Source: Acidithrix ferrooxidans
GTDB lineage: Bacteria; Actinomycetota; Acidimicrobiia; Acidimicrobiales; Acidimicrobiaceae
Assembly (NCBI RefSeq): GCF_000949295.1
Contig: NZ_JXYS01000001.1
Span: forward strand, 62,001 to 126,000
DNA: 64,000 bases
Direction of reading: 5' to 3'
The notes under the pieces were generated by a model. It did not search any database and was not told the DNA's origin. It saw only the letters and a program-made list of their open reading frames with translations. The translations under genes were made by a program, and so were the position numbers. Shown here piece by piece: positions 33,610 to 59,035 of this stretch. Position 1 is the stretch's first letter. Each line of letters opens with the position of its first letter.

Positions 33610-33611
33610 CT

Positions 33612-38232: not shown

Positions 38233-38323
38233 TTGAGCCTACGACCCCATCTTTAGCAGAGGGCATATCCATGGATCGTTGTGGTTGGTTGCGGCACGCT
38301 ACCTTGGGATCTCGAGGTGGCCG

Positions 38324-39733: not shown

Positions 39734-41101
39734 ATGAATTTGGATTCAAAGGCAAAGCCGGATCGAAGATTTCATCTGATCAGCGGTGGCAACTCCAACG
39801 TCTCGACAGCGGAATCGAATTTGGAGACTGATCAGGAAGATCTACCTGGCGAGGTATCTGGTTCGGAGTCCGATTCGGGCCATGGCATTTTTTCTCGCAG
39901 GCGCACTAGTGGGCGTTTAGGGACTCTATCTCTCGATGGAATGGGCTATGACGAACTAGAGGATGAGTTAAGTCAGAGCGATCGCATCTATGAGCGAAGC
40001 TCGCTTAGTTTTTCATTAATCGCTCTGGTTTTGGTCCTTCTCTTGGTTGGCTCTGCCATGGTCCTATCAACGTCATTCGTCCCTTCACTTGGTTTAAAGG
40101 GTTCGGGCTCTCCCTTTTCGATCTTTGAACGCCAGGCGATCTGGATCGTGATGGGCTTGTTTCTATTCTTTGGTATCGCTCGAATCAACCCCAAGCGAAT
40201 TGCACCATTTGCTCGATTGGGAATTGTTCCAGCCATAGTATTTCTAATAATTGTGCTTGTGCCAGGCGTGGGACTTGCTGTAGGTGGAGCCAAGCGATGG
40301 CTTGGGATCTCCTTCTTACGTTTTCAGCCCTCTGAATTTGCGAAGTTAGCTGTCATCTTGTACCTGGCCGGCTTCTTTACGCCGGCGGTTCCTATTCGTT
40401 TGCAACGATTTTCAAAGGCTCTTCCGGCTATATTGCTGGTTGGATTGATCTGTGGTCAGGTTCTGCTTGAGCCCGATATGGGTACCGCCATGGTGGTCGG
40501 ATCGATTCTGATTGGGATGCTCTTTCTAGCGGGTATGCGTATGAGGGTCTTTGCACCATTTGCCTTCGCAACTATTTGCCTTGCCACAGTGGCAGCGCTT
40601 GCTCGAAGTTATCGACGCCAGAGACTCCTCTCATTTCTTCATCCTTGGCAGAATCGGTTGAGCTACTCCTATCAGGAGGTACAGGGGCTTGTTGCATTTG
40701 CTACAGGTGGAGTTCATGGTGTTGGAATCGGCGCCGGTTCAGCAAAGTGGGGGTACCTGCCCAACAGCCAGACGGACTTTATTTTCGCTGTAATTGGCCA
40801 AGAAGCCGGTGTAATCGGCGGTCTTTTTGTGCTTGGACTATTGGCAGGTTTGACCTATGCCATCTTTAGGGTGGGGCTGAGAGCGCCAAGTCGGTTTGAG
40901 TTTTTGGTCTGTATAGGCATGGCTCTTTGGGTGGGGAGCCAAACACTGCTAAATATTGGCGCTGTTTTGGGTCTCTTGCCCGTGACCGGGGTTCCCTTGC
41001 CGTTGATCTCTGCCGGAGGCTCCTCGCTCCTCTTTATGATGGCTGGCCTTGGAATAGTTCTAGGGGTTGCTCGTCATAGTGATCCATCTCTGCGACGTTA
41101 A
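39734..41101 (+). CDS. ftsW: SEDS peptidoglycan glycosyltransferase FtsW
   Basis: Septal glycosyltransferase partner of FtsI. A hydrophilic N-terminal extension of about 90 residues precedes the multi-helix SEDS core with GGAKRWLG, FQPSEFAKL, LEPDMGTA and the late VTGVPLPLISAGGSS. Length is 455 aa. It is the last dcw gene before the 14.4-kb interruption; murG would normally follow. Confidence 0.93.
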   Translation: MNLDSKAKPDRRFHLISGGNSNVSTAESNLETDQEDLPGEVSGSESDSGHGIFSRRRTSGRLGTLSLDGMGYDELEDELSQSDRIYERSSLSFSLIALVLVLLLVGSAMVLSTSFVPSLGLKGSGSPFSIFERQAIWIVMGLFLFFGIARINPKRIAPFARLGIVPAIVFLIIVLVPGVGLAVGGAKRWLGISFLRFQPSEFAKLAVILYLAGFFTPAVPIRLQRFSKALPAILLVGLICGQVLLEPDMGTAMVVGSILIGMLFLAGMRMRVFAPFAFATICLATVAALARSYRRQRLLSFLHPWQNRLSYSYQEVQGLVAFATGGVHGVGIGAGSAKWGYLPNSQTDFIFAVIGQEAGVIGGLFVLGLLAGLTYAIFRVGLRAPSRFEFLVCIGMALWVGSQTLLNIGAVLGLLPVTGVPLPLISAGGSSLLFMMAGLGIVLGVARHSDPSLRR

Positions 41102-41707
41102 TACCAACATCTGATTGATACGGAGCTGATTAATACAGAGCGAAATAGCCGACTTTTGGTTATTCCCAGCGGGTGATTATAATGTTGAACCCAGTTGAAT
41201 CGTGGTTTAGCTTTGTCTGTGGCTTTGTCTTGCGATTTGAAGATAAAAGGTAGCTCTTTTGTTTTTATCAAAGCGCGCCGGAAAACCCCGTCCGTAAGGG
41301 CGGGGATGATGTCACGGAGATATAAGGATGCGCCATTTAGGATTGCATGATCTCTGTGTCGAAAAAGGGTTGAACTCTACCCACTTTAGGTGCTTTTTGG
41401 GCTGGATGGTAGATGGACGCGGCCAAAGGTAATTTTTGCTTCTTATGGGGATTTATCCGGCGGAGATCTCTTCTTCTAAGTTGACAGCTGTCCATTTCTA
41501 TTGCCATGTCATTGCCACTTTGTGGATCTTTCAGGGCTGGTTCGATTCAGGACATTTGCTCCAGAGGCGCCATGGTTGTTGCACCTCTGGATTTTTGCAC
41601 CTAGGACGGTGATTGTGATGGTGATGGCTATGGATCGATCATGGGAAATCAAAAGGTAAACGAAGTAGTCGGTTGAAAACTTTTACTTTAGGTCTTTGAT
41701 TTTAGGG
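41102..41707. other. Intergenic after ftsW, with IS605/TnpB-like 3' hairpin
   Basis: No gene. It contains a compact hairpin at 41286-41305 (listed separately). Other frames are short and stop-rich. Confidence 0.4.
41286..41305 (+). ncRNA. Possible orphan IS200/IS605 right-end / omegaRNA-like hairpin
   Basis: CCCCGTCC and GGGCGGGG form an 8-bp stem (one G-T wobble) around a GTAA loop, preceded by AAAA and followed by ATGATGTCA. This resembles the hairpin at the 3' end of tnpB-bearing IS605-type elements. No tnpB-like reading frame is present upstream. It could equally be an ordinary terminator, although no T run follows. Confidence 0.35.
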
Positions 41708-43084
41708 TTAATTGAGTCTTTCAAATTCCGCGGTAAAGTGCCTCAGAAATTGCGGAGCTTTAGTTATCTTGTACCCCTTTAAACCCTTGGCATCCTCAGC
41801 TACCTTTTTTGCGACCTCTATAACATAGTCAATGTGGCTTTGGGTGTAGGTTCGCCTTGGGATCGCAAGGCGAACTAGATCCATAGTGGCTGGAACTTCA
41901 GTTCCCTGCGGAGTCATCCCAAACATGACAGTACCGATCTCGCATCCGCGAATTCCGCCCATCTCATAGAGGGCAACGGCTAGAGCTTGTCCAGGGTATT
42001 GTAGCGGTGGAATGTGGGATAGAAAAGCACGGGCATCTATGTAGATTGCGTGGCCGCCGTAGGGCTTTACTACAGGAATGCCCGCCTTGTCGAGTGCATC
42101 GCCTAGGTAGGAGGTGGATGTGATTCGATATTGGAGGTAGTCGTGTGAGATCGCCTCCTTGAGCCCTACTGCGATTGCCTCTAGGTCTCTTCCGGCAAGG
42201 CCCCCGTAGGTTGGAAAGCCCTCGGTGAGAATGAGCATGTTTCGTGCTTTTTCGGCTAGAAGGTCGTCGTTACAGGCGAGCCATCCGCCGATATTTGCCA
42301 GAGGATCCTTCTTGGCGCTCATGGTCATTCCATCAGCGTAGGATATCATCTTTTTTACTATTTCTTTTACATCCATATTCTCATAGCCGGCTTCTCGAAG
42401 ACGTATGAACCAGGCGTTTTCTGCAAATCGACAGGCATCCAAGAAGAACGCTATGTTGAATTCATGTGCAATCTTAGAGACCTCTTCAATGTTGGCCATC
42501 GAAACGGGTTGGCCCCCACCTGAGTTGTTTGTTATCGTCAGCATGATAATTGGGATATTTTGAGGACCAACTCGGTCGATCAACTCTCTTAGAGCGTCAG
42601 TATTCATATTTCCCTTAAAGGGATGAATAGTTGCTGGGTCTTTTCCCTCTTCGATGACCAGATCTACCCCTTGAGCTCCAACAAATTCAATGTTGGCTCG
42701 GGTTGTATCAAAGTGTGTATTGGAGGGGATGACCATGCCATCTCCAGCGATAGATGAAAAGAGAATCTTCTCTGCCGCTCGACCCTGATGGGTTGGAATT
42801 ATGTGCTTGAAGTCGAATAAATCAACGACTGCTTCACGAAAGATCTCCCAGGATGGTGAGCCAGCATAGGATTCATCCCCATGTTGAATTGCCGCCCATT
42901 GGTCCCTGCTCATCGCTCCGGTTCCAGAATCGGTGAGCAGATCTATTAGGACGTCTTTGGCGGGAATATTAAAGACGTTGTACTTTGCTTTTTCGATAGC
43001 ACTCTTTCGTTCATCCCGGCTCATTAGCTTGATCGGCTCCACGGAATGAATTCGAAATGGTTCTATTATTGTGTTGAACTCCAT
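41708..43084 (-). CDS. tnaA: Tryptophanase
   Basis: PLP-dependent beta-eliminating lyase converting tryptophan to indole, pyruvate and ammonia. It shows the family blocks DLLTDSGTGAMS, IPTHQGRAAE, FFLDACRFAENA and the PLP lysine in MTMSAKKDPLANIGG. Near the C-terminus the sequence is CEIG, as in tryptophanase (VEIG), whereas tyrosine phenol-lyase has an arginine there; this favours tryptophanase. Length is 458 aa. It is the only minus-strand gene in the interruption and has no leader peptide or permease gene nearby. Confidence 0.85.
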   Translation of the reverse strand: MEFNTIIEPFRIHSVEPIKLMSRDERKSAIEKAKYNVFNIPAKDVLIDLLTDSGTGAMSRDQWAAIQHGDESYAGSPSWEIFREAVVDLFDFKHIIPTHQGRAAEKILFSSIAGDGMVIPSNTHFDTTRANIEFVGAQGVDLVIEEGKDPATIHPFKGNMNTDALRELIDRVGPQNIPIIMLTITNNSGGGQPVSMANIEEVSKIAHEFNIAFFLDACRFAENAWFIRLREAGYENMDVKEIVKKMISYADGMTMSAKKDPLANIGGWLACNDDLLAEKARNMLILTEGFPTYGGLAGRDLEAIAVGLKEAISHDYLQYRITSTSYLGDALDKAGIPVVKPYGGHAIYIDARAFLSHIPPLQYPGQALAVALYEMGGIRGCEIGTVMFGMTPQGTEVPATMDLVRLAIPRRTYTQSHIDYVIEVAKKVAEDAKGLKGYKITKAPQFLRHFTAEFERLN

Positions 43085-43959
43085 GGCTCGATGTTACATT
43101 GTAGCGTTACCAGATTCCGTAGTTAGATTTTAAATCTGCAGCTCACAGGTATATTTTAGGGTCAGAAAATGGTGCATGTTTTTTTTGGAACAGACACTTT
43201 GTTGACTAAGGTTTGCGGTTCGTGCCGAAGTTGCTCTAATAGCTAGTCAAATTGTTCGGCGATCGGTGAGCTTCTTTCACAAGAGAAAGTGACACCTTTG
43301 TGCCTCACTATTTGGTTTTTCTTGGGTAAGTGCGTGATTCGTTGTCTCTAAGGAAGATATTGGTTACCCGGTCCTTTCTATAGGCTGTTTTTGAAAACCG
43401 TTGTTATTGATTTTTATGAAAGTTGAACCTCTTGCTTGCTGGGTAATTAGATAGCAATTAGTTCGTGAAATGGCATCTATTACTTTGAATGATCTTTGGT
43501 GAATTAATTTTTATATTTCTTCATTGCAATATAATTTTGGAATTTCTGGATCACTCTGAGATTATCCCACGCCGAACAAGGGCTATTTCTTGTATTTCTT
43601 GAATCAACGCCTCTTTGAAATGAGGATCTACGAAAGCACCTTGCTGAGGACACGACCTCTGGTTCGTACCTCCAAAGATCCGTAGTGACTCAAAGATCCG
43701 TAGTGACTCAAAGATCCGTAGTGACTCAAAGAGACCTCTTCTTGATCGTTCTTTTTGTTGACGGTAGATCGGTGATTCGTAGCCAGTTTGCTCTTCTTTT
43801 TGGTGGCTTTGGAAAATTTCATATCACTTTGACATTTGAAGTTAAATTCCGATTCGCCAATTAAATGTGGTGTAATATCGCTTAGCTACAAGATGTACTT
43901 ATGTGGTTGCCTGGGTTTGCTTCTGAAGCTTAGGCGCACTATGAAGTTGGGGGATATGC
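43085..43959. other. Divergent intergenic region tnaA / coxM
   Basis: About 875 AT-rich bases holding the promoters of both genes and an 18-bp tandem repeat. A 64-codon frame over the repeat (43628-43822, minus) merely encodes it and is not called. Confidence 0.45.
43674..43727. repeat. 18-bp tandem repeat, 3 copies
   Basis: Three perfect head-to-tail copies of AAAGATCCGTAGTGACTC, followed by a partial AAAGA. Confidence 0.95.
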
Positions 43960-44835
43960 ATGCAGGTGCCAGCACCGGTGGAATATGAACGCGCTCTGAG
44001 TGTAGATGACGCTATCGAGCGTCTCACTCGCTTAGGGCCCGAGGCTCGATTGGTAGCGGGAGGACACAGCCTATTACCAATGATGAAGCTGAGACTAGCT
44101 AGACCCGAATGTCTGATCGATATAAATGGATTGGCAGATCTCTCTTTCATAAGACGTGACGGGAATGTGCTTCGGATTGGTGCTATGACGCGCCATAGCG
44201 AGCTTTTGGCTTCTCAGGTCATTTCCGAAGTTGCGAAGATAATCCCAGACGCTGAAGCTGTCATTGCGGATCCGATTGTAAGGAATCGTGGAACTGTAGG
44301 TGGTTCCATGTGTCAAGCAGATCCCGCTGAAGACCTCTCTGCAGTCTTTGCCGCCCTAGATGCCATGGTTGAGATTCGAGGGCCACGAGGGACCAGAGTT
44401 GTCTCAGTAAATGGTTTTCATACGGGCCCCTATTCTACGGTTGTGGAGCCCGATGAGATCTTGACTGAAGTCTCATTTGTAACACAAAAGAATTTAGGTA
44501 GTGCCTATGAAAAGGTTGAGCGCCGCGTTGGCGATTGGGCTATTGCAGCTGCGGGTGCCGTTATCGCTCTCCAAGATGGAAAGATTCAAAGAGTAGGAAT
44601 CGGCTTGGCCGCTGTTGGTGCTCCTGATTTTCGCGCCAGTCGCGCGGAGGCATATCTATTGGGTAAGGATGCCACCCCCGACCTATTTGATGAGGCAGCA
44701 AGAATGGCTAGTGCGGAGTGTAATCCTAACTCTGACCAGCGTGGACCAAGCGCATATAAGCGACATTTGGTGGAGGTATTAACCAGGAGGGCTCTCGATG
44801 GGGCACTAAGTAATTCCAAGGGAAAGGCAAACTAG
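43960..44835 (+). CDS. coxM: CO dehydrogenase medium (FAD) subunit CoxM
   Basis: Flavoprotein subunit passing electrons from the iron-sulfur subunit towards the respiratory chain. The FAD-binding motifs AGGHSLLPMMKLR and TVGGSMCQADP of the xanthine-dehydrogenase family are present. Length (291 aa) matches CoxM. First gene of coxM-coxS-coxL-xdhC, the standard order of form I CO dehydrogenases. coxS begins two bases after its stop. Confidence 0.92.
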   Translation: MQVPAPVEYERALSVDDAIERLTRLGPEARLVAGGHSLLPMMKLRLARPECLIDINGLADLSFIRRDGNVLRIGAMTRHSELLASQVISEVAKIIPDAEAVIADPIVRNRGTVGGSMCQADPAEDLSAVFAALDAMVEIRGPRGTRVVSVNGFHTGPYSTVVEPDEILTEVSFVTQKNLGSAYEKVERRVGDWAIAAAGAVIALQDGKIQRVGIGLAAVGAPDFRASRAEAYLLGKDATPDLFDEAARMASAECNPNSDQRGPSAYKRHLVEVLTRRALDGALSNSKGKAN

Positions 44836-44837
44836 CA

Positions 44838-45335
44838 GTGCGTGTGAATATTGAGGTAAATGGAGTCAACTATTCTGAGGAGATAGAGCCTAGACTTCTG
44901 TTGGTTCACTTTATAAGAGATCAAATCGGGCTAACCGGAACGCATTGGGGCTGTGACACATCCAACTGCGGTACGTGTGTCTTGTGGTTGGATGATCTTC
45001 CAGTTAAGTCCTGTACTGTCTTGACGGCAATGGCAGATGGCCACAGAGTGCGAACAGTAGAGGATCTTGAACAAGGTGGGGAACTGGACCCAGTGCAGAA
45101 GGGCTTCATGCAAGAACACGGCCTTCAGTGTGGCTTTTGCACCCCAGGAATGCTGATGACCGCTCGTGCCCTTTTGGATAGAAATCCCAATCCAAGCGAC
45201 CTTGAGATTCGAGAGGCGATCTCAGGACAGATCTGTAGATGTACGGGTTATGAAAATATTGTTAGAGCGATTCGATGGGCGGCTGCAAACTCTTCTTCGA
45301 ATGGCGCTTTGGATGTAGCGGAGGTTGCGCAATGA
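44838..45335 (+). CDS. coxS: CO dehydrogenase small (2Fe-2S) subunit CoxS
   Basis: Carries two [2Fe-2S] clusters. The plant-type ferredoxin cysteines are in GCDTSNCGTC with a fourth downstream (KSCTV). The second cluster cysteines are in CGFCTPGM and CRCTGYENI. GTG start at 44838. Length (165 aa) is typical. Its stop overlaps the coxL ATG. Confidence 0.94.
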   Translation: MRVNIEVNGVNYSEEIEPRLLLVHFIRDQIGLTGTHWGCDTSNCGTCVLWLDDLPVKSCTVLTAMADGHRVRTVEDLEQGGELDPVQKGFMQEHGLQCGFCTPGMLMTARALLDRNPNPSDLEIREAISGQICRCTGYENIVRAIRWAAANSSSNGALDVAEVAQ

Positions 45336-47710
45336 CGACCACAGAAAATCAAGCAAATCCGATTGGCTTTGGAAGAATGTTGCGCAAAGAAGACGCACGT
45401 TTTCTTCGGGGCAAGGGAAACTATGTAGATGACCTCAATTTGCCTGGGATGTTGCACGGTGCGGTTCTGCGATCTCCCTATGCCCATGCTCGCATCAAGT
45501 CAATTGATATCTCCGCAGCTCAAGCTCATCCTAAAGTAAAAGCGGTTATCACTGGGGAAATCCTTGAGACGCTGAATCTGGCTTGGATCCCATCACTCTC
45601 TCATGACGTGGTAGCTGTTTTAGCGACCGATAAAGTTCGCTTTCAAGGTCAAGAGGTTGCCTTTGTGGTTGCTGAGGATCGTTATTCCGCAAGAGATGCG
45701 CTGGAACTTATTGAGGTTGACTACGAAGTTTTACCACCGGTGGTGGATGCCAAAAAAGCACTTGATAAAGATGCGCCGGTGATTCGAGATGACATCGCTG
45801 GCAAGGTTGATAACTTTATTTTCGATTGGGAGTCGGGTGACAAAGCTGCTACAGATGAGGTCTTTGCGAACGCTGCCATCGTAGTCAACCAAGATATGTT
45901 ATATCCTCGAGTCCATCCTGCACCGATGGAGACTTGCGGGGCTGTTGCCTATATGGATCCGATAGATCAAAAACTTACGATCTATTCCACAACTCAAGCT
46001 CCACATGCACACAGAACCCTATATGCCCTAGTGGCGGGATTGCCAGAGCATAAGTTGAGGGTGGTCTCCCCTGATATTGGTGGCGGCTTTGGAAACAAGG
46101 TTGGAATCTATCCGGGTTATGTGCTGGCTATAGTTGGATCGATCCTTACCAAGCGACCAGTCAAGTGGATGGAGGATCGCTCTGAGAATTTGATGAGCAC
46201 CTCTTTCGCACGTGACTACCACATGAAGGGTTCGATTGCAGCTAGCGCCGATGGAAAGATTTTGGGTCTAAGGGTAGATGTCTTAGCCGACCACGGTGCC
46301 TTCAATAATACCGCTCAGCCGACCAAGTTTCCCGCAGGGTTCTTCCACGTCTTTACGGGTTCATACGATCTTATGGCTGCACATTGTTCTGTTCGGGGTG
46401 TCTATACCAATAAAGCACCAGGGGGCGTCGCCTACGCATGTTCGTTTAGGGTTACTGAGGCTGTCTATCTCGTTGAACGAATGGTTGATCGTTTGGCTCA
46501 AGAGCTAAAAATGGACCCTGCAGAACTGAGAATGAAGAACCTCCTTCGCCCAGAGCAATTCCCATATACATCTCCGACGGGTTGGGAGTACGACTCCGGT
46601 GAATATCCTCGGGCCCTTCGCTTAGCAATGGATATAGCTGGTTATGAGGAGCTTCGAAAGGAGCAGGCACAAAAACGGGCCAAAGGCGAGCTAATGGGAA
46701 TAGGCATTAGCTTTTTTACCGAGACGGTTGGCGCTGGTCCTAAGCGCCATATGGATATTTTAGGGCTCGGAATGGCTGACGGCTGTGAAGTTCGTGTTCA
46801 TCCTACCGGTAAGGCGGTTGTTCGGCTATCGGTTCAGAGTCAAGGACAGGGCCATGAAACTACATTTGCTCAGATCGTCTCTGAGGTAACTGGTATTCCA
46901 CCAGAAGATATTGACGTGGTACACGGTGACACCGACAATACCCCATTTGGCCTTGGCACCTATGGATCTCGTTCGACCCCGGTATCTGGCGCAGCCGCAG
47001 CTATAGCTGCACGACGTGTGGTTGATAAAGCACGAATTGTGGCTAGTGCCATGCTGGAGTGCGCACCTGAAGACCTGGAATGGGAGAAGGGCCGCTTCAA
47101 CATCAAAGGTGATAAGTCAGTGGGCAAAACCATGGCCGAGATAGCACTTGGTGCTCACGGAACGGTAGAGCTACCAGAAGGGGTAGAAGGTCACCTAAAT
47201 GCTGAGTGTGTCTATGATCCGCCGAATTTGACTTATCCATTCGGAGCCTATATTTGTGTTGTTGATGTGGATCCTGCAACTGCCAAGGTTTCGGTACGGC
47301 GATTCATTGCTGTCGATGACTGTGGTCCAAGAATCAATCCGATGATCGTTGAAGGTCAGGTACATGGTGGTCTTGCAGACGGAGTGGGAATGGCCCTCAT
47401 GGAAGTTATTGCCTTTGATGAAGATGGCAATAACCTTGGTGCGTCGTTTATGGACTACCTTATTCCTACTTCCTTAGAATGTCCTTCTTGGGAGACCGGT
47501 GCCACTGTAACGCCGTCCCCACATCATCCTCTTGGGCTAAAGGGGGTTGGTGAATCGGCTACAGTAGGATCACCGCCGGCGGTTGTCAATGCAGTCATTG
47601 ATGCGCTAGCTCCGTATGGCGTCAAGCACGCAGATATGCCGCTTACGCCAGCTCAAGTCTGGCAGGCAATGCAAGGTGCGCCCTATAGGACGGATTTGGC
47701 AATCCAGTGA
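45332..47710 (+). CDS. coxL: CO dehydrogenase large (Mo) subunit CoxL, form I
   Basis: Molybdopterin-cytosine-dinucleotide catalytic subunit. It carries the form I active-site signature AYACSFR (AYxCSFR; cysteine at about residue 370), which marks true aerobic CO dehydrogenases and separates them from form II homologues. The catalytic glutamate is in GVGESATVGSP near the C-terminus. Start ATG 45332 overlaps the coxS stop (792 aa). An upstream in-frame start at 45275 lies inside coxS. CO oxidation would supply electrons for respiration. Enzyme maturation needs genes not seen here. Confidence 0.93.
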   Translation: MTTTENQANPIGFGRMLRKEDARFLRGKGNYVDDLNLPGMLHGAVLRSPYAHARIKSIDISAAQAHPKVKAVITGEILETLNLAWIPSLSHDVVAVLATDKVRFQGQEVAFVVAEDRYSARDALELIEVDYEVLPPVVDAKKALDKDAPVIRDDIAGKVDNFIFDWESGDKAATDEVFANAAIVVNQDMLYPRVHPAPMETCGAVAYMDPIDQKLTIYSTTQAPHAHRTLYALVAGLPEHKLRVVSPDIGGGFGNKVGIYPGYVLAIVGSILTKRPVKWMEDRSENLMSTSFARDYHMKGSIAASADGKILGLRVDVLADHGAFNNTAQPTKFPAGFFHVFTGSYDLMAAHCSVRGVYTNKAPGGVAYACSFRVTEAVYLVERMVDRLAQELKMDPAELRMKNLLRPEQFPYTSPTGWEYDSGEYPRALRLAMDIAGYEELRKEQAQKRAKGELMGIGISFFTETVGAGPKRHMDILGLGMADGCEVRVHPTGKAVVRLSVQSQGQGHETTFAQIVSEVTGIPPEDIDVVHGDTDNTPFGLGTYGSRSTPVSGAAAAIAARRVVDKARIVASAMLECAPEDLEWEKGRFNIKGDKSVGKTMAEIALGAHGTVELPEGVEGHLNAECVYDPPNLTYPFGAYICVVDVDPATAKVSVRRFIAVDDCGPRINPMIVEGQVHGGLADGVGMALMEVIAFDEDGNNLGASFMDYLIPTSLECPSWETGATVTPSPHHPLGLKGVGESATVGSPPAVVNAVIDALAPYGVKHADMPLTPAQVWQAMQGAPYRTDLAIQ

Positions 47711-48600
47711 CACGAATCGATGTAATGGATAGAGCAGCGGAGTTGCGACGACAGAGGGTTCCCTTTGTCTTGGCAACTGTAGTGCGGGCCCAATCGCCAA
47801 CGAGTGCAAGGCCAGGAGACTGTGCGGTGATTCTTTCGGATGGGACGATCGAAGGTTTTGTTGGTGGCTCTTGTGCCTTGACTACAGTTAAGGCTGAGTC
47901 GCTGCGGGTTCTCTCAAGAGAGTTCTCGGCACTTTTGATCATCTCGCCCCATAGTACTCAAAGCGATGAAAATGACTCAGATGGCGAGGTGATAAGGGCC
48001 TTCAACCCTTGCCTTTCAGGCGGGACCTTGGAGATGTTTTTAGAACCTTCACTTCCTGAGCCGACGATTGTGATCTATGGTGACTCTCCAATTGCTCAGG
48101 CACTTTTAGATGCAGCGGCAGTTGTTGGCTTTAGGCCACTTGAGGGCACTTTCATGGGATCTAAGGAGCTTGAAAGTGACTTCGTCGTCATCGCTACCCA
48201 TGGGATCGACGAAGAGCCGGCGCTTATTGAGGCCTTGGAGTCAAAGGCAAGTTATATCGGCCTTGTGGCTTCAAGAAGGCGGGGAGCTGGCGTTCTAAGT
48301 CTTCTAGAGGATAAGGGCTATGACCTAAGTAGGATAAAGTCTCCAGCTGGACTAGACATCGGTGGGCGGACTCCTGGTGAGATTGCAATATCCATCTTGG
48401 CAGAGATAGTTACCCGAAGAAATTCAAGGTCGCACCGAGCTGAAACTTTGGCGCCCAACTATCCACAGATTGGGATTGACCCAATCTGTGGGATGGATGT
48501 AGTGATCGACGCCAGCGCCATTACTGTCAATTTAGGTGGCATCGACTACTACTTTTGTTGTAATGGTTGCAGAGTTAACTTCCAAAAGCAACATAGCTGA
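47707..48600 (+). CDS. XdhC/CoxF-like maturation protein fused to a YHS domain
   Basis: Predicted accessory protein for molybdenum-cofactor insertion. The N-terminal XdhC domain (VLATVVRAQSPTSARPGD, FVGGSCAL) precedes a Rossmann-like domain with YGDSP, GLVASRRR and IGGRTPGEIA. A C-terminal YHS metal-binding domain (DPICGMDV ... YYFCCNGC) is appended over the last 40 or so residues. It starts at GTG 47707, overlapping the coxL stop, so it is co-translated with the enzyme. The YHS fusion suggests copper or other metal handling, perhaps for the Mo-S-Cu site; that is inference. Confidence 0.87.
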   Translation: MTRIDVMDRAAELRRQRVPFVLATVVRAQSPTSARPGDCAVILSDGTIEGFVGGSCALTTVKAESLRVLSREFSALLIISPHSTQSDENDSDGEVIRAFNPCLSGGTLEMFLEPSLPEPTIVIYGDSPIAQALLDAAAVVGFRPLEGTFMGSKELESDFVVIATHGIDEEPALIEALESKASYIGLVASRRRGAGVLSLLEDKGYDLSRIKSPAGLDIGGRTPGEIAISILAEIVTRRNSRSHRAETLAPNYPQIGIDPICGMDVVIDASAITVNLGGIDYYFCCNGCRVNFQKQHS

Positions 48601-50456
48601 TCGAGGCGGAATCCTTACCTCCGCATGGAGCATCGTGCTGTTGATGCGGTTTTTTCAACCACACTCGGATTAGCGAAACAGAGATTAGCAATACCGTGAT
48701 AACCAAGTGCTAAGGCGACCCCTTCGATCAGTCGATATTATTGATTTGGCCAGGAGATCGCGCTTTTCTTGGCCAAACCTTTTTGGAAAAGTACTTGAGG
48801 GTTGCATGGAGAAGCTGTGTTGCGCTGTGGTACAAGACTTTCGGTCCATCTTTTTCGACTCTAATCTCATCGATGATTAGGAAAGATGATTTGTTTGTGG
48901 GCTTAGAGGTAGATGGTCTCAAAAATCTAAATCTTCCCAGGGAAAGGAGAATAGGTTGTCTCGAACTCCTAGTTGAGGTACCGATTATCCCCACGAATAA
49001 TTCAGTTTGAGATACGACTAACGGTACAAGAATGGAGGTGGCTTAGATCTTATAAAAGTTACAAAGCTATTGCAGGCTCCGAAGGAGATTGCCAGGAGAG
49101 GGTAACTACCTAGGCAACCCAAGAATATATATTAGATTGGCGAGTGAGCGAGATCTACTGGTTGATATTTGCTCCTAGGATCGATTGATCTACTTAGGCG
49201 CGGGTAATATGAGCATCGGGCCGGTCGAAAGTCTTTTGGGTTTTGTTTTTTTGGAATACTAGATTGTTTCTCGAGCGCGACACTCTATTGCATCAATTGA
49301 CTAGCATGTGTCAATAGAGGGTGTTTTCACCCCTAATTCTGGGCTGTGATGATTCGAGACCGCGCTCATCAAGGTGAGTTTCTAAAAGCTCGAGTCAGAG
49401 TGAACACTGGTCTTTCTGAGGCTTGGCTAGATTCGTTTATAGTTGTCGATTGGACACCCTAAGGCATTGACTGAATGCCAAAGGAGTTTTGGGGTGACCA
49501 AGATTACGACTCTTGGGTCTATTACCAGTGGATATAGATATCTAAAGTTGACCGTTTGAAATGCTTAGGCAAGTTTATGAACCATGGAATTGATCGATTT
49601 TCTATCCGTCGTGCCGTGCAGTGTTAGATCGATATCAAGGCAAAGGCAAAATTGTCGAACGCTCTTTCTTTGGTGCCAGATCATGATACGCCTTAGGGAA
49701 TCCCTCATGGCTGATATCCTATCGAGCATTCACATTACAATATCTGGGATGAGATGACGATAGTGGATCAGTGCAGATATTACCAAGAGATCAATTCGCA
49801 CTAGATTGCTGGTGAGTAGTTCATGATTTTTATGCAATTGGGAGCTTTTGCTTTTCCAAATGGTCAATTTGTGTGATAAGTTTCGGTTCATTGTATAGCC
49901 TTTTGTCCGCCGTCTATGAGATCGCTCTTTTCTAACTGGGGCGGCACGAGGCCAGATAGGCGAAATTAAAAGTTTGATTTATAGTTTGATGAAATTATAA
50001 ATTACTATAATTATTTAAGTTCAACTAATGCGAATCGACTATAGGTCGATATCCATTGATAGGTTTTCTAGGAGCGGAACGCCTAAATTGGGGCAAGACT
50101 GTGGTTATGCGTAGGTGAGCTTCAGCTCCGATGAGCTTTGAAAGTAGAGTTTCGAGAGATCAAATGGATCAAGGAAGCTCTATTACAAGACGGTTTTTTG
50201 TGGCATCAGGTGAATAAAGATGAGGCTCATGGGATTGAGTTGCGCATCGCTTATGAGTTTGGGGTCTCTATTGGCCATATCACTGAGAGATAATTCGTAT
50301 TGCTAAAAGGACGATCCGAATTTGAGATTCTAAATGAGAGATTCAGGCGTTTATGAGGGGTGTATTGATTGCTTTATTTTCACTCGCTGGGTAGTTTTGG
50401 ATAGATCATTGCCAGAGGTAAGCCCGGAGTCAGTTTTGGATAGACGGAGGAGCTAA
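48601..50456. other. 1.9 kb region without convincing genes
   Basis: Both strands show only short, interrupted frames. Some stretches near 49330-49450 and 50138-50293 look coding-like for 30-50 codons, suggesting decayed genes, but I recognise no family. A GGCATT/AATGCC hairpin lies at about 49463-49479. Confidence 0.4.
50138..50293 (+). CDS. Possible 51-aa protein or gene fragment
   Basis: TTG-initiated frame encoding a 51-residue, mostly helical, charged peptide (KVEFREIKWIKEALL ... SIGHITER). There is no ribosome binding site or known motif. It may be the tail of a decayed gene. Confidence 0.2.
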   Translation: MKVEFREIKWIKEALLQDGFLWHQVNKDEAHGIELRIAYEFGVSIGHITER

Positions 50457-53447
50457 ATGGACGAGAAGTTCGAGAAGATGTCACGTCTTTATCAGGCCCT
50501 CTATGAGATCAATGAAGCTATTTTGCGTCTCGAAGATGAAAGCCACCTCTTTCCGCTGATCTGCGACATTGCGGTTTCTCTTGGTGGAATGAGACTTGCT
50601 TGGATTGGGCGCCCGGATCTCGAATCAGGAAGTATGACTCGCCTAGTCTCTTCTGGGGCTACTGCGTATTTAGATGGAATTGAGATCTTCGTCGATCCAT
50701 CTTCTGACTTCGGACAAGGCCCAACTGGACACGTTTGGCGTGAAGGTCAAAATGTCATAATCAATGATTTTCACTCTTCTGAAATGACAGATCCATGGAA
50801 AGAGCGTGCTGTTACCAATAGAATTAATTCATGTGGATCTTTCCCAATCTTTCGTGGCGGTGAGATCTTTGCGATCTTTACGGCCTATCACGAACAGATA
50901 GGTGCTTTCGATAGCGATGTTGTTGCGCTCTTGGACGAGCTATCTCGTGATGTAACTTTTGCTCTTGAAAACTTTGACCGAAACGCGGAAATCGAGAGAA
51001 GTTCCTCTGAGCTCGCTGCTAAGGAGCGCCACTTCCGCGCCTATTTCGAGCATTCGATGGTTGGAATGATAGCATTAACCAAGGATGGGATGATCCTAGA
51101 GGCGAATAGTCGCTTTTGTGAGATGCTCGGTTACAAACAAGATGAGCTCCCCAGAAATATCGTATATGGCCTCTCGCACCCCGATGACATTGAGCTGAGT
51201 AAGGCGTTTTTAGCTAGAGCTTCTCAGGCGACTGGTGGTTATTTTGTCCTAGATAAGCGTTACATCCATAAGGATGGCTCAACTATTCGTGTTCATAATA
51301 CCGTAGGGGTGGTCACTGATGCTTTGGGTAACTTCGACTATTTAGTCGCTGCAGTTGAAAATGTAAATGAGCGTGACGAACGGCGCAATCGAATAGAGTT
51401 ACTCGGTCGAATTATCGATAATTCTCTCAACGAAGTGCTAATCTATGAAGCCAAGTCGCTGCGCTTTACATGGGCCAACCGTGGATCATTGATTAACCTT
51501 GGTTATAGCGCTTTAGAGCTAAATGAGATGGATGCTCTGGCGATTAAGCCTGATTTTGATTTGGCCAGCTTCATGGAGCTGGCCTCACCGCTATTGGATA
51601 AGACTAAGGAGATATTGGTCTTTGAGTCGGTCCGTCAACGCAAAGATGGGTCAAGATATCCAGTAGAAGTTCACCTTCAGATTGCCGAAGTGGGCGAGGA
51701 GCGTTTCTTCGTCGCTGTTGTATTGGATATTACCGCTCGGATTGAGAGTCGAGATCGTCTTCTTACTGCGGCGAGTCTCTTTACTAACAGTAGAGAAGGC
51801 ATAGCGATTGCTGACGCCGACTTTAGGGTCACTGCTATCAACTCCTCTTTTACTAGGATTACCGGCTATAGCGAAGAAGATGCAATCGATACTTATGTAG
51901 CACCGACTGATTCACCGATGGTCTTTGATGGTGGTTTCGGCGAGGATTGGTCGAAGCTGTTGCGGAACGGTGAGTTTGACGGCGACCTATGGAGCCATCG
52001 CAAGGATGGATTCGGGTATTTGAATCGATTTTCAATTCGCCACATTCGTGACGATCGAGAGATGGTGGTGGGCTACGCCGGATTTTATAAGGATGTCACC
52101 CAGGAGAGATCAAACGAGGAACGCCTTCGTAACGCCGAGATGACTGACTCTTTGACCGGTCTTATGAACCGCAACTCCTTCATGGTGGCCACGGTTGAAC
52201 TCTTTGAGTCAGAGTCAAAGGCAATGGGTGGCGTTGCTCTTTTGCTTGTCAACCTCGATCACTTTAAAGCTGTCAATGAGGCCTATGGCTATTCGATAGG
52301 CGACGTCGCATTGCAGAGGCTTGGTAGTCGGTTTGAAGCTATGATAGATCCAAAGAGGCCGATCTGTCGCTTGGGCGGCGATGAATTTGCGATGGCCGTT
52401 GCCACGAAGGATCCACTCGATGCGCTGGATTTCGCACAGTCTGTTTTGGGATTGATAAATCAGCCAATTGAGACGGAAGCCGGTGAAGTTCACTTAGGAG
52501 CTTTCATTGGCATCTCGCTTTACCCGGATGATTCTAGTGACTTTGAGTCACTCTTTATCTTGGCTAATTCGGCTCTAGAACGCGCTCGTCATGGTGGTTC
52601 AAATAAGATCCTTCTTTTCGACTCCTCGAATATTGGGGCCTATACTCGATCCCTCGAGATCCAGAAGTCTTTCCGAAGGGCGCTTTCCAATGATGAGCTG
52701 TACTTGGTTTATCAGCCGATAGTTTCGCTCAGGGATGGGTCAATTCGAAGTTTTGAGGCTCTCTTGCGTTGGAATCATCCTAAATTGGGTGAGGTCCCGC
52801 CATCCGAAATAATCCGAATCGCTGAGCGATCTGGGTTTATAATTCCACTGGGAAATTGGATAATTAGTCGAGCCCTCGCGCAGTTGGCTAGCTGGCATCG
52901 TGATGGGGTCGATGTGGCGATGCTCTCGATCAATGTATCAGCGATTCAGTTTTTAGACGGCAGCTTGGTCTCGATCTTGGGAGACAAGCTACGCCAATAT
53001 GGTCTTGGAAATGGCGTGGTAGAGGTGGAGATTACTGAAACTATCGCTATGACAAATGTTGATGAGTCACAGGCACAGATCGAAAAGCTAAAAGATTTAG
53101 GCGTGGGCATCTCCATCGACGATTTTGGCACAGGCTATTCGTCTCTCAGCTATCTTCGTAAATTTCCCGCCACAACGATCAAGATCGACCAAAGCTTTAC
53201 GAGTGAATTGGTTGAGAACGTTGAAGTTAGCACCATAGTAGAGTCGGTCATAAGGATTGCAGATGCTCTGGGCGCTGAGATCGTGGCGGAGGGGGTCGAA
53301 ACTATAGCACAATTTGAGGTTCTGCAACGTATGGGTTGTGCAAACGTGCAGGGATATCTTATTGCCAGGCCAATGTTGCCGGAAAAGGTGGCACCTTTTA
53401 TTGAAAAAGTAGCGCAAGATCCGTGGTATTTTTTATGCCAGGAGTGA
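50457..53447 (+). CDS. GAF-PAS-GGDEF-EAL c-di-GMP enzyme
   Basis: 996-aa soluble regulator. A GAF domain (about residues 15-175) and three PAS domains (about 190-305, 315-430, 438-555) precede a GGDEF domain with intact RLGGDEF and an EAL domain with EALLRWNHP, NVSAIQF, EITET, DDFGTGYSS, KIDQSF and EGVET. Both catalytic halves look competent, so it could make and degrade c-di-GMP. Unlike the cyclase at the left end, it lacks the RxxD inhibitory site (DPKR stands there). ATG 50457 follows GGAGG. It is monocistronic inside the dcw interruption. Confidence 0.93.
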   Translation: MDEKFEKMSRLYQALYEINEAILRLEDESHLFPLICDIAVSLGGMRLAWIGRPDLESGSMTRLVSSGATAYLDGIEIFVDPSSDFGQGPTGHVWREGQNVIINDFHSSEMTDPWKERAVTNRINSCGSFPIFRGGEIFAIFTAYHEQIGAFDSDVVALLDELSRDVTFALENFDRNAEIERSSSELAAKERHFRAYFEHSMVGMIALTKDGMILEANSRFCEMLGYKQDELPRNIVYGLSHPDDIELSKAFLARASQATGGYFVLDKRYIHKDGSTIRVHNTVGVVTDALGNFDYLVAAVENVNERDERRNRIELLGRIIDNSLNEVLIYEAKSLRFTWANRGSLINLGYSALELNEMDALAIKPDFDLASFMELASPLLDKTKEILVFESVRQRKDGSRYPVEVHLQIAEVGEERFFVAVVLDITARIESRDRLLTAASLFTNSREGIAIADADFRVTAINSSFTRITGYSEEDAIDTYVAPTDSPMVFDGGFGEDWSKLLRNGEFDGDLWSHRKDGFGYLNRFSIRHIRDDREMVVGYAGFYKDVTQERSNEERLRNAEMTDSLTGLMNRNSFMVATVELFESESKAMGGVALLLVNLDHFKAVNEAYGYSIGDVALQRLGSRFEAMIDPKRPICRLGGDEFAMAVATKDPLDALDFAQSVLGLINQPIETEAGEVHLGAFIGISLYPDDSSDFESLFILANSALERARHGGSNKILLFDSSNIGAYTRSLEIQKSFRRALSNDELYLVYQPIVSLRDGSIRSFEALLRWNHPKLGEVPPSEIIRIAERSGFIIPLGNWIISRALAQLASWHRDGVDVAMLSINVSAIQFLDGSLVSILGDKLRQYGLGNGVVEVEITETIAMTNVDESQAQIEKLKDLGVGISIDDFGTGYSSLSYLRKFPATTIKIDQSFTSELVENVEVSTIVESVIRIADALGAEIVAEGVETIAQFEVLQRMGCANVQGYLIARPMLPEKVAPFIEKVAQDPWYFLCQE

Positions 53448-53893
53448 AGCTAGTTCCCCTTGGGACTTTCCTTTTTGCGACTAACTACGCTTTTCTAATC
53501 GATTTTGAATCAAATGTTGATTCAAATTCTTGCCCTTCGGGTTTGTTTATTAAGTAACTTTGGGTTGTTACTGCTTCGATTCGATGCGGATGGTAATGAA
53601 GTTAATGGCAGGTTTTGGGCGATAGCGAAATCAAAAAAAAGTAGTTACGGTCGAAAATTATCAGGAACAATAGCGCCGACTTATCGTAATATTTGGAGTT
53701 TACCATTAGTGTGATGACACTAGTCTCCGGAACGCTCCAGTCCATAACAAGCGGTATTCCAATTCTGAAGGTCATCATCGCCTTGGATCTGTGATTTTGC
53801 TATTTTGGGACGGCCTTGGCTTTTTTGGCTTCCCCAATCATCATTTGGATCATCAAGACCTCATAACCGGTGCCTTCTCCCTGTGGTCGTGAG

Positions 53894-53917
53894 AGTGCTC
53901 CTCGAAGTGCTCCTCGA
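53894..53917. repeat. 12-bp tandem repeat, 2 copies
   Basis: Two perfect copies of AGTGCTCCTCGA followed by AGTG. Confidence 0.85.
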
Positions 53918-54379
53918 AGTGGTCGCGATTTGTATTTCATAGAGATGTAATTAGCTGCTGTTGAGCAGCCATCGACAATTGGTCGTCTTTGACTTGGTCG
54001 ATGGCTCTTGATAATTGTCGCGTAATGAGTCCTATAATTTGCGGTGATTGGTTAGGAGATAGGTGGTTTGATGACCCATCTTGAATTGATAAAGATGGCA
54101 GTAAATGAATATGTTGCTACTTTTTGGCTGACTAAATGGCGGTCATTGCAAATAATTACCATGGTTTATTAAAGTTGAAGATTTGATTCCAGTGACTTAT
54201 CTATAGGGGCAACTAGAAATCATTTAAAGTTTTTCATGGCTGTGATTAATATCTTAGTATTGTCGCGTTTTGAACTTGGTATTTTATAAGGGTTATTTTA
54301 ATCGTTGAGAGGTTGGATCTCGCTAGTGAAGGGTGAATTTATTTTTAGTATAAAACCTTTTGCCGAAATAGTCTGTGCG

Positions 54380-54467
54380 TTGATCTGGCTTTGATCTGGC
54401 TTTGATCTGGCTTTGATCTGGCTTTGATCTGGCTTTGATCTGGCTTTGATCTGGCTTTGATCTGGCT
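54380..54467. repeat. 11-bp tandem repeat, 8 copies
   Basis: Eight perfect copies of TTGATCTGGCT plus a partial ninth. The period equals about one helical turn, so all copies face the same side of the DNA. No spacers, so it is not a CRISPR. Confidence 0.97.
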
Positions 54468-54504
54468 TTGATTTACATGGTAGGGGTTTCGGCAGGTGGT
54501 TCTT

Positions 54505-54536
54505 GGCTGTCTGCGAGTAAGGCTGTCTGCGAGTAA
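54505..54536. repeat. 16-bp tandem repeat, 2 copies
   Basis: Two perfect copies of GGCTGTCTGCGAGTAA. Confidence 0.9.
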
Positions 54537-54864
54537 GAAAGTGACTCCTTGAGGGTTGCTTGTCCATGTGACTACAGTCTCAATAGACCTGTAGCTTCAA
54601 TCGAACTGCCAAGGAGAAAGCTGTTGGATGGAAGATCATCGTCGTTTCTCTTCCTCAGGTCTCTATATCAGCTATCGCGTCGATTTCTTAGCGGCAAGAG
54701 ACGATCGACAGAGCTGATCGGCAGAGATTAAAAAGCTTGGCAACGAATCCTCCCATAGAGCGAGTTGGGTCATGCATATGAGGTGGATATGCTAGTTGAC
54801 CCTATCTGTTGAGGCAATTGTGCTACTGCGATTAGAAGATTCAAACAGTGCTAGGGCTTGATTT

Positions 54865-54898
54865 TTGAAGGTGACTTTGAAGGTGACTTTGAAGGTGA
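54865..54898. repeat. 12-bp tandem repeat, 2.8 copies
   Basis: TTGAAGGTGACT repeated head to tail, with the last copy missing two bases. Confidence 0.9.
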
Positions 54899-55028
54899 AA
54901 ATTGTCCCATTGCTATCAACCTTGGAATTTGGACTTTCTTGTTGAGCGAGTAATCACACTTTGTTTTTGATTTGCCTTAGCGCTAGGGCATGTGATTGCT
55001 ATCTCGTTAGTACGTATTCATATTTTAT

Positions 55029-55074
55029 GTTGCTAACAGTGTTGCTAACAGTGTTGCTAACAGTGTTGCTAACA
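55029..55074. repeat. 12-bp tandem repeat, 3.8 copies
   Basis: GTTGCTAACAGT repeated head to tail, with the last copy missing two bases. Confidence 0.95.
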
Positions 55075-55474
55075 AAGGTCTTTGAATGCCCTTGATTAAT
55101 TGGCCTGGGTAAAGCTGAGGCCTTTGGATCTTATTTGAGCGGACTTGGACGCATTGGTTTGGCCTTTATTGTCGCCATTAAATCTTAGTGGATGAACCGT
55201 TGAGTGATCGATTACATTACGACCATGGATGCGAAAACCTAACTCAGGGCGCAAGCCCGCCAAGGCATTAGGCGCTAGGGTTATTCTTCAAAAGGAAATC
55301 GTCGCTGGCTGTAGTGTGCGCCGGATGCATCTATTGAATAGATGTCCGAGCGCGCAACGAGGCGGCCATAGCGTCGCTTGGTGCGTGCGATGATGGTCCA
55401 AAGATGGTGAAATTTTCAAACTCGATTCTCGAGAGTTGCAACTCGAAGTCTTAAAGTTAAAAAGTAGGTACGAT

Positions 55475-56623
55475 ATGAAGGTTGTCATAGGTGCGGCAGG
55501 CACCGGCGGTCATATCTATCCAGCGGTGGCAGTAGCGCAGTGTCTTGAGGATAGATCGATTTCGGCGAGCGAAATCTGTTTTGTGACCTCTAGTAGGCCG
55601 GTCGAGGATGCTATTTTTTCGCAATTGCCCTATGGTAGAGAAAGACTTGATGTAAGGGGAATTACCGCTAGCTCAACAGTACTATCCAAAGTACGAGGCG
55701 TTGCCTCCCTTGTATCTGCATCTTTTGCGATAAGGGCTTTGCTCAAGGTGCAGAGGCCGAAGGTCGCCATCGTCTTTGGGGGCTACATCTCAGTCGTTGT
55801 TGCACTGGCTAGTTATAGCTTGGGGATTCCGGTTTTAGTAGTGGAGACAAACTCTGTTATGGGGCGAGCCAACCGGTTGATCTCCAAACTAGCCAAGGAG
55901 ATCTTTTTAAGTTTTGAAGAGTCAAAGATCCATCGGGGCAAGATCGATCCCAATGGTTTTGCGAACCGCTCGGGAGTCCCTCTAAGAAGAGAGATAATGG
56001 CTGTCGATGTCTCCAAAGAGGCAAGGCGGGATCTCTTTTCGAAAGCGGGCTTCGAGGTTGATGAGATAGATAGCTTTGTTGTTATCTTTGGCGGTTCGCT
56101 AGGTTCAAGAAGAATAAATGATGCAATTATTGCTACCTTATCTAACTTCCCAAATCGCTTCCCAAAGGTGGGCTTTTTTGTTATTACAGGAGAGCGTGAC
56201 TTCGGGGAGGTTCGACAAGAACTCACAGAAGTATCAAAGGTGTCATCGGCGCAGGTCGTCTTTGAAAACTATAGTGACGAGCTCTATTCATATATGGGAA
56301 ATGCGGATCTTGTGATCTCGCGCGCAGGTTCGAATACGGTGGCTGAGCTCGACTACTTTGGAGTGCCAGCTATTTTGATTCCGCTTCCGAACTCCCCAGG
56401 CGACCACCAGACAAAGAATGCTCGTTGGTATTGCGAGAGAAGCGAGGCAGTCTTTGTAAGAGAAGGCGACTTTTCCCCGGCACTTCTTGGCGACATGATC
56501 GAGAAATTGATCAGCTCGCCAACCAAAGTTTTTCACCAAAGTTTTCCCAATAAGCCAAGTGACGACGAAGTTGGCGATGCTGCAATACGGATCGCGAAAA
56601 GAGCCATTGATTATGCTCTTTAA
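55475..56623 (+). CDS. murG: MurG N-acetylglucosaminyltransferase
   Basis: Membrane-associated GT-B glycosyltransferase converting lipid I to lipid II. It shows the N-terminal GAAGTGGHIYPAVA loop, VFGGYIS, VVETNSVMGRANR (usually HExNxxxGxxNR) and the C-terminal SRAGSNTVAELDYFGVPAILIP donor-binding region. Start ATG 55475 (382 aa) directly precedes the conserved fold; the upstream TTG 55436 is not supported. It reopens the dcw order after the interruption. murC follows 52 bp later. Confidence 0.94.
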   Translation: MKVVIGAAGTGGHIYPAVAVAQCLEDRSISASEICFVTSSRPVEDAIFSQLPYGRERLDVRGITASSTVLSKVRGVASLVSASFAIRALLKVQRPKVAIVFGGYISVVVALASYSLGIPVLVVETNSVMGRANRLISKLAKEIFLSFEESKIHRGKIDPNGFANRSGVPLRREIMAVDVSKEARRDLFSKAGFEVDEIDSFVVIFGGSLGSRRINDAIIATLSNFPNRFPKVGFFVITGERDFGEVRQELTEVSKVSSAQVVFENYSDELYSYMGNADLVISRAGSNTVAELDYFGVPAILIPLPNSPGDHQTKNARWYCERSEAVFVREGDFSPALLGDMIEKLISSPTKVFHQSFPNKPSDDEVGDAAIRIAKRAIDYAL

Positions 56624-56675
56624 TAAAGGTTTGTCCGCATAGATCTCTAGGGATACTTCCATGAAAGGAGTCGCC

Positions 56676-58070: not shown

Positions 58071-59035
58071 TGGATCACCACTGGAATTTCAATGGTTTGA
58101 GAGATGCCCTAGCGCTGGCTGGTTTGTCGATCTGGTCTGATCCATCTCTAGCTTCTCGTACTACTTATCGAGTGGGCGGCTCTACTGCAATTGGTGTAAC
58201 TATTGGGACTAAAGAGCACCTTTTGACCTTCTATGAGCTGATCAGAAATGAGGGTGAGATACCGATTTTTGTGATCGGTAATGGTTCGAATTTGTTGGTC
58301 TCTGACTCTGGTTTTTCTGGGGTTGCACTTTGCTTAGGGGGTGACTTTGACCGCATTGACTTTGAAGGTTTGTCCGCTAGGGCAGGATCTTCTGTGCATT
58401 TACCCATTCTTGCTCGACGGTCGGGCGGCATCGGGTTGAGTGGCTTTGAGTGGGCAGTAGGGGTGCCAGGGTCGATTGGTGGTGCTATTCGTATGAATGC
58501 AGGTGGCCATGGTTCGACTATGGCGGATTCGGTTGAATCGATCGAGATCTATGATCCAAATGAGCCTTTGGGCTACAAAAGTTTGAGCGTTAGTCAATGC
58601 GGATTTGGATATCGAAGTTCGGGACTGTCACCCACAGCGGTAGTTTTAGGTGCGACGATTCGAATGGTGGAGGGGGATCCGCAGCTGTCCAAAGCCAGAA
58701 TTAGCGAGATTGTGACATGGCGTCGGAACAATCAGCCAGGTGGGCAAAATGCTGGAAGTGTCTTCGTTAATCCTCCTTCAATAAGCGCCGGTAGCCTCAT
58801 TGAACAAGCGGGCCTAAAGGGATTTACCTATCGCGGTGCCAGTGTTTCACAAAAGCATGCGAATTTTATTCAGGCAGAGCCCGGAGCTTCGGCCCTTGAC
58901 GTCATAACTCTTATGGCTAAAGTTCGTGATATTGTCGATGCTAAGTTCTCGATACGACTTCATAGCGAGATTCGATTTTTAGGATTCGACGAGACCTACG
59001 GATTGGAAGGGTTAAACACCGTCAAATCTCACTAG
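58070..59035 (+). CDS. murB: UDP-N-acetylenolpyruvoylglucosamine reductase MurB
   Basis: FAD/NADPH enzyme making UDP-MurNAc from the enolpyruvyl intermediate. It shows TTYRVGGST, the GNGSNLLVSDSGF FAD loop, AVGVPGSIGGA and the catalytic serine in NAGSVFVNP, and ends with a conserved glutamate in HSEIRFLG. Length is 321 aa. Translationally coupled to murC. Confidence 0.95.
   Translation: MDHHWNFNGLRDALALAGLSIWSDPSLASRTTYRVGGSTAIGVTIGTKEHLLTFYELIRNEGEIPIFVIGNGSNLLVSDSGFSGVALCLGGDFDRIDFEGLSARAGSSVHLPILARRSGGIGLSGFEWAVGVPGSIGGAIRMNAGGHGSTMADSVESIEIYDPNEPLGYKSLSVSQCGFGYRSSGLSPTAVVLGATIRMVEGDPQLSKARISEIVTWRRNNQPGGQNAGSVFVNPPSISAGSLIEQAGLKGFTYRGASVSQKHANFIQAEPGASALDVITLMAKVRDIVDAKFSIRLHSEIRFLGFDETYGLEGLNTVKSH

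Follow-up and report, generated by a model that had tools for sequence, protein, structure and literature searches.

The division and cell wall (dcw) cluster ranks among the most stable gene clusters of bacteria (PMC8871954). For the Neisseriaceae, a fragmented dcw cluster has been described whose sub-clusters keep their inner order; the authors report no effect of the fragmentation on cell form (PMC9395523). Here, the dcw cluster of Acidithrix ferrooxidans was analyzed on a stretch of 64,000 nucleotides (contig NZ_JXYS01000001.1, positions 62,001 to 126,000), hereafter called the window. In this cluster, ftsW and murG are separated by a 14.4-kb insert. Comparison with related genomes revealed that the ftsW/murG split characterizes the genus, where it apparently arose layer by layer, and is not a peculiarity of the A. 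ferrooxidans genome. A report of such a split in this genus was not found in titles or abstract openings of the open-access literature.

Two dcw halves in A. ferrooxidans

The published draft genome of A. ferrooxidans Py-F3 consists of 183 contigs with 4.02 Mb and a GC content of 47.8% (PMC4417699). The assembly used here amounts to 4,019,867 bases over 183 contigs; the contig containing the window is 188.3 kb long, and the GC content of the window ranges from 42 to 52% per kb. The order ftsI-murE-mraY-murD-ftsW-murG-murC-murB-ftsQ-ftsZ, which is of the actinobacterial type and alike in the relatives, is kept with all genes on the plus strand. The cluster is not contiguous, since the last base of ftsW is at position 41101 and murG begins only at 55475 (ATG) or 55436 (TTG). 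The intervening DNA carries tnaA (on the minus strand), coxM, coxS, coxL, an xdhC-like gene and a gene for a GAF-PAS-GGDEF-EAL protein, in this order. An earlier note on this DNA had described a dcw cluster split at this position, and its coordinates and gene order hold. The gene names it gave to the insert agree with the domain matches, for the tryptophanase at the family level only. The features, including gaps without larger open reading frames (ORFs), are as follows:

32680..33609, plus strand: ftsL-like gene of the upstream dcw half (TIGR02209, 34.0 bits, below the cut-off of 42.45)
33606..35669, plus strand: ftsI (PF00905, PF03717)
35681..37195, plus strand: murE (Mur ligase domains and cluster position)
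37192..38232, plus strand: mraY (PF00953, PF10555)
38279..39661, plus strand: murD (Mur ligase domains and cluster position)
39734..41101, plus strand: ftsW, the final gene ahead of the breach (PF01098)
41708..43084, minus strand: tnaA, tryptophanase family (PF01212; PRK13238 above cut-off)
43960..44835, plus strand: coxM, FAD subunit (PF00941, PF03450)
44838..45335, plus strand: coxS, iron-sulphur subunit (PF01799)
45275..47710 (ORF start; true start possibly further in), plus strand: coxL, predicted form I aerobic CO dehydrogenase large subunit (TIGR02416)
47707..48600, plus strand: xdhC/coxF-like gene (PF13478 and PF02625 above cut-off) with a C-terminal YHS-type match (PF04945, below cut-off)
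48601..50456, no strand: gap without an ORF of 90 amino acids (ORF list, frame scan)
50457..53447, plus strand: gene for a GAF-PAS-GGDEF-EAL protein of 996 amino acids (Pfam)
53448..55474, no strand: gap ahead of murG that contains tandem arrays at 53894, 54380, 54505, 54864 and 55028
55475..56623 (alternative TTG start at 55436), plus strand: murG (PF03033 and PF04101 above cut-off)
56661..58070, plus strand: murC (Mur ligase domains and position)
58070..59035, plus strand: murB (PF02873, PF01565)
59197..60009, plus strand: ftsQ (PF08478)
61354..62541, plus strand: ftsZ (PF00091, PF12327)

The best NCBIfam model for the murG product is murG itself, with 206 bits (cut-off 250, not reached), and the gene is the sole MurG match in the genome.

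Adjacency of ftsW and murG in related genomes

MurG and FtsW were searched in 60 genomes, A. ferrooxidans and 59 relatives (designated by G numbers), the latter mostly draft genomes with a completeness of 65-95%; the genus was taken as grouped in the genome set used. Genes were regarded as adjacent when they resided on the same contig and strand with less than 500 nt between the matched parts. The best FtsW matches of G003, G006, G027 and G036 were excluded as presumed paralogs (30-33% identity where given; E value of 8.5e-25 for G006). Outside the genus, 42 of the 48 sampled relatives have adjacent ftsW and murG genes, including G053, where a piece of murG lies at the contig end, and G056, where one of two copies is adjacent. 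The six remaining genomes comprise G038, G039 and G045, in which murG is located on a different contig and ftsW directly precedes murC, G048 with a murG inverted in place, and G027 and G036, in which one of the two genes was not found (G027 lacks a MurG match). By contrast, adjacency was detected in none of the 11 sampled genus members, A. ferrooxidans not counted. The two genes lie on one contig with 1.8-1.9 kb between the matched parts in G001, G007 and G008, and on different contigs in G002, G004, G009, G010 and G011; one of them is missing from the assemblies of G003, G005 (no MurG match) and G006. The block murG-murC-murB-ftsQ-ftsZ is intact in all nine genus relatives whose murG contig extends to ftsZ.

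The earlier note had assumed that ftsW and murG are normally adjacent and that their contiguity is under strong selection. The first part is borne out by the other genera; the second is weakened by four members of the order with a broken neighbourhood and by the published fragmented dcw clusters. The note had further named adjacency in all close relatives together with evidence of misassembly as an outcome contradicting it; adjacency prevails in the other genera but not within the genus, and no sign of misassembly was seen.

In the four order members G048, G038, G039 and G045, murG is inverted or displaced while the other dcw genes are in place, and it looks like the loosest dcw member in this order. 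Within the genus, MurG proteins share 40-46% identity, much lower than FtsZ (59-87%) or MraY (75-79%).

Layered gene orders within the genus

tnaA adjoins ftsW in 8 of the 12 genus genomes, A. ferrooxidans included. In G001, G007 and G008, ftsW is followed by an antisense tnaA and then by murG, tnaA and murG being arranged head to head. G002, G004 and G011 possess ftsW, the antisense tnaA and then coxM onward; in G010, tnaA follows ftsW up to the contig end. The tnaA-coxM junction of A. ferrooxidans recurs in G002, G004, G011 and G005, the last of which carries tnaA-coxMSL on a contig beginning within tnaA and ftsW at the end of another contig. Behind the xdhC-like gene of G004, genes for a sensor kinase, a response regulator, an enoyl-CoA hydratase and an AMP-binding protein were found. 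Another AMP-binding gene precedes murG in the same direction in all five genomes of the sister clade (G002, G003, G004, G010, G011). In G004 it is the last gene of a run comprising a CoA-transferase gene, Liv-type transporter genes and a baeRF gene, and the distance between ftsW and murG is at least 26.7 kb in this genome, if its two contigs are neighbours. The proteins most similar to the GGDEF-EAL protein occur in G009 (47% identity) and G005 (45%, partial) on stretches in which no dcw gene was detected; thus, its placement in A. ferrooxidans is common to no relative examined.

A phylogeny was calculated from nine dcw proteins of 16 genomes, with G003, G005, G006 and several others incompletely represented. 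In this tree, A. ferrooxidans groups with G009, G005, G006, G002-G004, G010 and G011, leaving G001, G007 and G008 outside. The TnaA and CoxL trees (unrooted; a short CoxL piece of G005 omitted) separate the genus from the other taxa with ultrafast bootstrap values of 89 and 88, which fits one origin within the genus. A tnaA match exists in 13 genomes outside the genus. Within the stretches of 4.8-14 kb fetched for six of these 13 loci, no dcw gene was detected beside tnaA (E value 1e-10, 35% identity), indicating that tnaA came to the dcw cluster and not the reverse.

From these directly observed gene orders we infer, with a probability of roughly 0.78, that, in the genus ancestor, an antisense tryptophanase-family gene interrupted a contiguous dcw cluster of the actinobacterial type at the ftsW-murG junction and that this breach was then widened by layers of ordinary chromosomal genes. 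coxMSL-xdhC would be the second layer. The GGDEF-EAL gene and approximately 3.9 kb of non-coding DNA would be later additions in A. ferrooxidans, while the two-component, enoyl-CoA hydratase, Liv-transporter and AMP-binding genes would have been added in the sister clade. The simplest reading of the sequence of events would thus be tnaA first, cox next and diverse additions afterwards, with loss or rearrangement in G009. Two dcw half-units would have resulted, an upstream one ending at ftsW and a downstream one in which murG-murC-murB-ftsQ-ftsZ stays together. The genes of the insert are probably passengers, whose tolerance may be due to an own promoter that the downstream half already possessed or acquired.

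Transcription of the downstream half

As the only MurG match in the genome, murG has to be transcribed. Most likely, transcription of the half from murG to ftsZ is initiated at a separate promoter a short distance upstream of murG; such a promoter, if any, should sit within 53448..55474. With an antisense tnaA standing alone between ftsW and murG in G001, G007 and G008, cotranscription of the downstream half with ftsW is difficult to envisage there. The sequence GACCTAATAGGATG upstream of murG is identical in these three tnaA-only genomes, and TTTAGGCTG, likewise upstream of murG, is identical in six of six others, though G006 diverges further upstream. Each of the two blocks contains a TAGGNT hexamer of the actinobacterial -10 type. 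The conserved -10-like blocks support an own murG promoter in the relatives, not in A. ferrooxidans. In the latter, the following element was identified:

55276..55281, plus strand: TAGGGT, candidate -10 box at chance level, the single TAGRNT hexamer within the 601 bp preceding murG

A terminator scan yielded no excess over shuffled sequences (16 versus 15.0), and read-through into murG from the co-directional GGDEF-EAL gene is possible. Given this possibility, the earlier statement that murG-murC-murB-ftsQ must use a promoter inside the insert is probable rather than compelling.

The segment 55290-55480 folds with a z score of -3.0 (none of 200 shuffles was equally good). A structured RNA leader of murG was nevertheless dropped as a candidate: in a scan of the contig's non-coding DNA on both strands (1048 windows of 120 nt), the two plus-strand windows at this position did not go beyond -1.1 and -2.1, compared with values of -3.95 or lower in at least 25 windows of the scan. 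Rfam models scored nothing above the gathering threshold in 38000-64000 or 55100-55600.

Genes and non-coding DNA of the insert

TnaA exceeds the cut-off of the tryptophanase subfamily model PRK13238 (678 versus 285 bits). At the equivalog level, two tryptophanase models (532 and 495 bits) and the tyrosine phenol-lyase model (516 bits) all remained below their cut-offs. The protein has Ile in a CEIG motif, as in the best solved tryptophanase, while tyrosine phenol-lyase has Arg in MERG. This position, which presumably is diagnostic for the two enzymes, favours a putative tryptophanase over a tyrosine phenol-lyase. CoxL reaches 1347 bits with TIGR02416 (cut-off 991) and contains AYACSFR at residue 386, corresponding to the AYxCSFR motif that we assume to be the signature of form I CoxL. 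As both motif and equivalog model agree, coxMSL is a predicted form I aerobic CO dehydrogenase. Subunit order, motif and model score are those of form I operons; the A. ferrooxidans cox operon (43960-48600) differs in lacking downstream AAA and VWA_CoxE genes, both of which are present in G013. VWA_CoxE matches occur on contigs C31 and C4 of A. ferrooxidans, and C31 also carries a second CoxL-like gene.

Transposase or integrase domains, as expected for a mobile element or genomic island, were detected neither in the six ORFs of the insert (Pfam) nor in 9 of 12 gap frames, the scan covering ORFs of at least 90 amino acids and these gap frames. No tRNA gene was found in the 64-kb window.

The insert has four gaps of 606, 875, 1856 and 1988 bp (the last one 2027 bp when measured to the murG ATG), which amount to 5.3 kb without ORFs of 90 amino acids. 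Thus, 37% of the insert lies outside such ORFs, compared to a contig mean of 20-21% in windows of 14.4 kb. This share is matched by one of 279 insert-free windows with an overlap tolerance of 100 nt and by none of 279 with 150 nt; the comparison covers 182 of the contig's 188 kb, and neighbouring windows overlap and are therefore not independent. Six tandem-array rows fall into the 5.3 kb of non-coding DNA of the insert versus 15 into 34.9 kb elsewhere on the contig, a modest surplus. Of the roughly 5 kb of DNA that the earlier note had called gene-poor and repeat-rich, the former description is accurate, and the latter holds as a modest excess. Decayed genes were rejected as the content of the two large gaps, since 9 of 12 frames (all of the first large gap and the forward ones of the second, stops read as X) gave no Pfam match at an E value of 0.1.

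Some further observations concern single segments. The 188 bp directly after the xdhC-like gene (48601-48788) have a copy with 82% identity between ORFs on contig C81 (L055:5203-5398), and a 52-bp piece of the 48601-50456 gap is also present on contig C91. A second gap in the cluster, 1.3 kb in length, separates ftsQ and ftsZ (60010-61353), while the matched parts of these genes are about 0.24 kb apart in G004; thus, the dcw region of A. ferrooxidans has a second loosened site. The segment 24728-25704 contains imperfect direct repeats; their period of 129 bp is a multiple of three, and they perhaps belong to a repeat-domain protein.

Alternative explanations

Several findings weigh against a breach by tnaA with subsequent layering. 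In G009, no match was obtained for tnaA and none for CoxL at an E value of 1e-100, and ftsW is followed by a co-directional glutamine-synthetase-like gene, so that loss or rearrangement must be assumed in this genome. The right-hand junction, from the GGDEF-EAL gene to murG, was seen in the A. ferrooxidans assembly alone, and the two deciding nodes of the dcw tree are weakly supported (77 and 82). With regard to the promoter, about one hexamer like the TAGGGT at 55276 is expected by chance per 600 bp, and a promoter scan in A. ferrooxidans revealed no excess (16 sites versus 19.1 expected from shuffles). Moreover, the location of ftsW and murG on different contigs in G002, G004, G009, G010 and G011 makes a relocation of one half possible. 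It is conceivable that the halves were parted by a translocation or inversion instead of insertions. In this case, the murG-ftsZ half would have moved, in the sister clade and G009 if not in other genomes, and the flanking genes would merely be its new neighbours. The AMP-binding gene ahead of murG on contigs without ftsW in the sister clade, the long unrelated gene run in G004, the gene behind ftsW in G009 and the displacement of murG alone in G038, G039 and G045 would be in line with such an event. It is still rather unlikely, since A. ferrooxidans, G001, G007 and G008 carry both halves co-directionally on a single contig with the original order preserved, for which no translocation is needed.

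A false join of unrelated pieces at about 41.1 or 55.4 kb is very improbable. The draft is fragmented, the right-hand junction has no counterpart in relatives, and tandem arrays lie within the gap before murG. On the left side, however, misassembly was rejected due to the recurrence of the ftsW-tnaA and tnaA-coxM junctions in other genus genomes, and on the right side it is unlikely because the 2027 bp upstream of murG are single-copy in the A. ferrooxidans genome, so that no repeat accounts for a false join. In addition, the Py-F3 draft rests on 18-fold 454 and 203-fold Illumina coverage (PMC4417699). There is likewise little to be said for the insert as a selected regulatory module coupling amino-acid breakdown, cyclic di-GMP (c-di-GMP) and division. 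The frequent position of tnaA beside ftsW, in three genomes head to head with murG, would suit this idea, as would the reported finding that indole, a product of tryptophanase, blocks division of E. coli (PMC3793866). On the other hand, indole production by the A. ferrooxidans TnaA is only putative, G009 manages without tnaA, the GGDEF-EAL and cox layers are not common to all genus members, and no common regulatory site was found. In its most far-reaching form, which we consider a long shot, the breach would be a selected control point: the antisense tryptophanase, retained next to ftsW from the genus ancestor onward and facing murG head to head in the deepest lineage, would link amino-acid breakdown, perhaps through indole, with the synthesis of lipid II and with septum formation in an acidophile that grows as filaments; the c-di-GMP enzyme of A. 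ferrooxidans might, just as doubtfully, be a later addition to this switch.

Comparison with known systems

The genus offers a graded natural series, from contiguous clusters in other genera over a one-gene breach (1.8-1.9 kb) and the 14.4-kb breach to halves on separate contigs. The series allows asking where the promoter of the cut-off half came from, whether the expression from murG to ftsZ has become independent of ftsW and whether cell form changes accordingly; the Neisseriaceae results (PMC9395523) argue against a link with cell form. Since one member of the genus is cultured and filamentous (PMC4417699), these questions are testable.

The split is real, but as a deviation from a strongly conserved gene order it is modest. 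G038, G039, G045 and G048 resemble A. ferrooxidans in their broken ftsW-murG neighbourhood. However, murG alone departed in the first three and is inverted in the fourth, whereas murG of A. ferrooxidans still heads the downstream block. Dispersed or sub-clustered dcw genes have been described in Cyanobacteria and other phyla (PMC8871954); the common feature is the loss of contiguity as a trait of a lineage, but unlike Cyanobacteria, A. ferrooxidans has opened one junction only and left the inner order of both halves unchanged. The likeness to the Neisseriaceae lies in the division of a conserved dcw cluster into sub-clusters with preserved inner order. According to that work (PMC9395523), the Neisseriaceae retain an ftsW-murG sub-cluster, while Acidithrix parts exactly this pair and apparently has layered filler in between. 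A genus-wide, layer-filled break at this junction is therefore unusual, but does not constitute a new kind of system.

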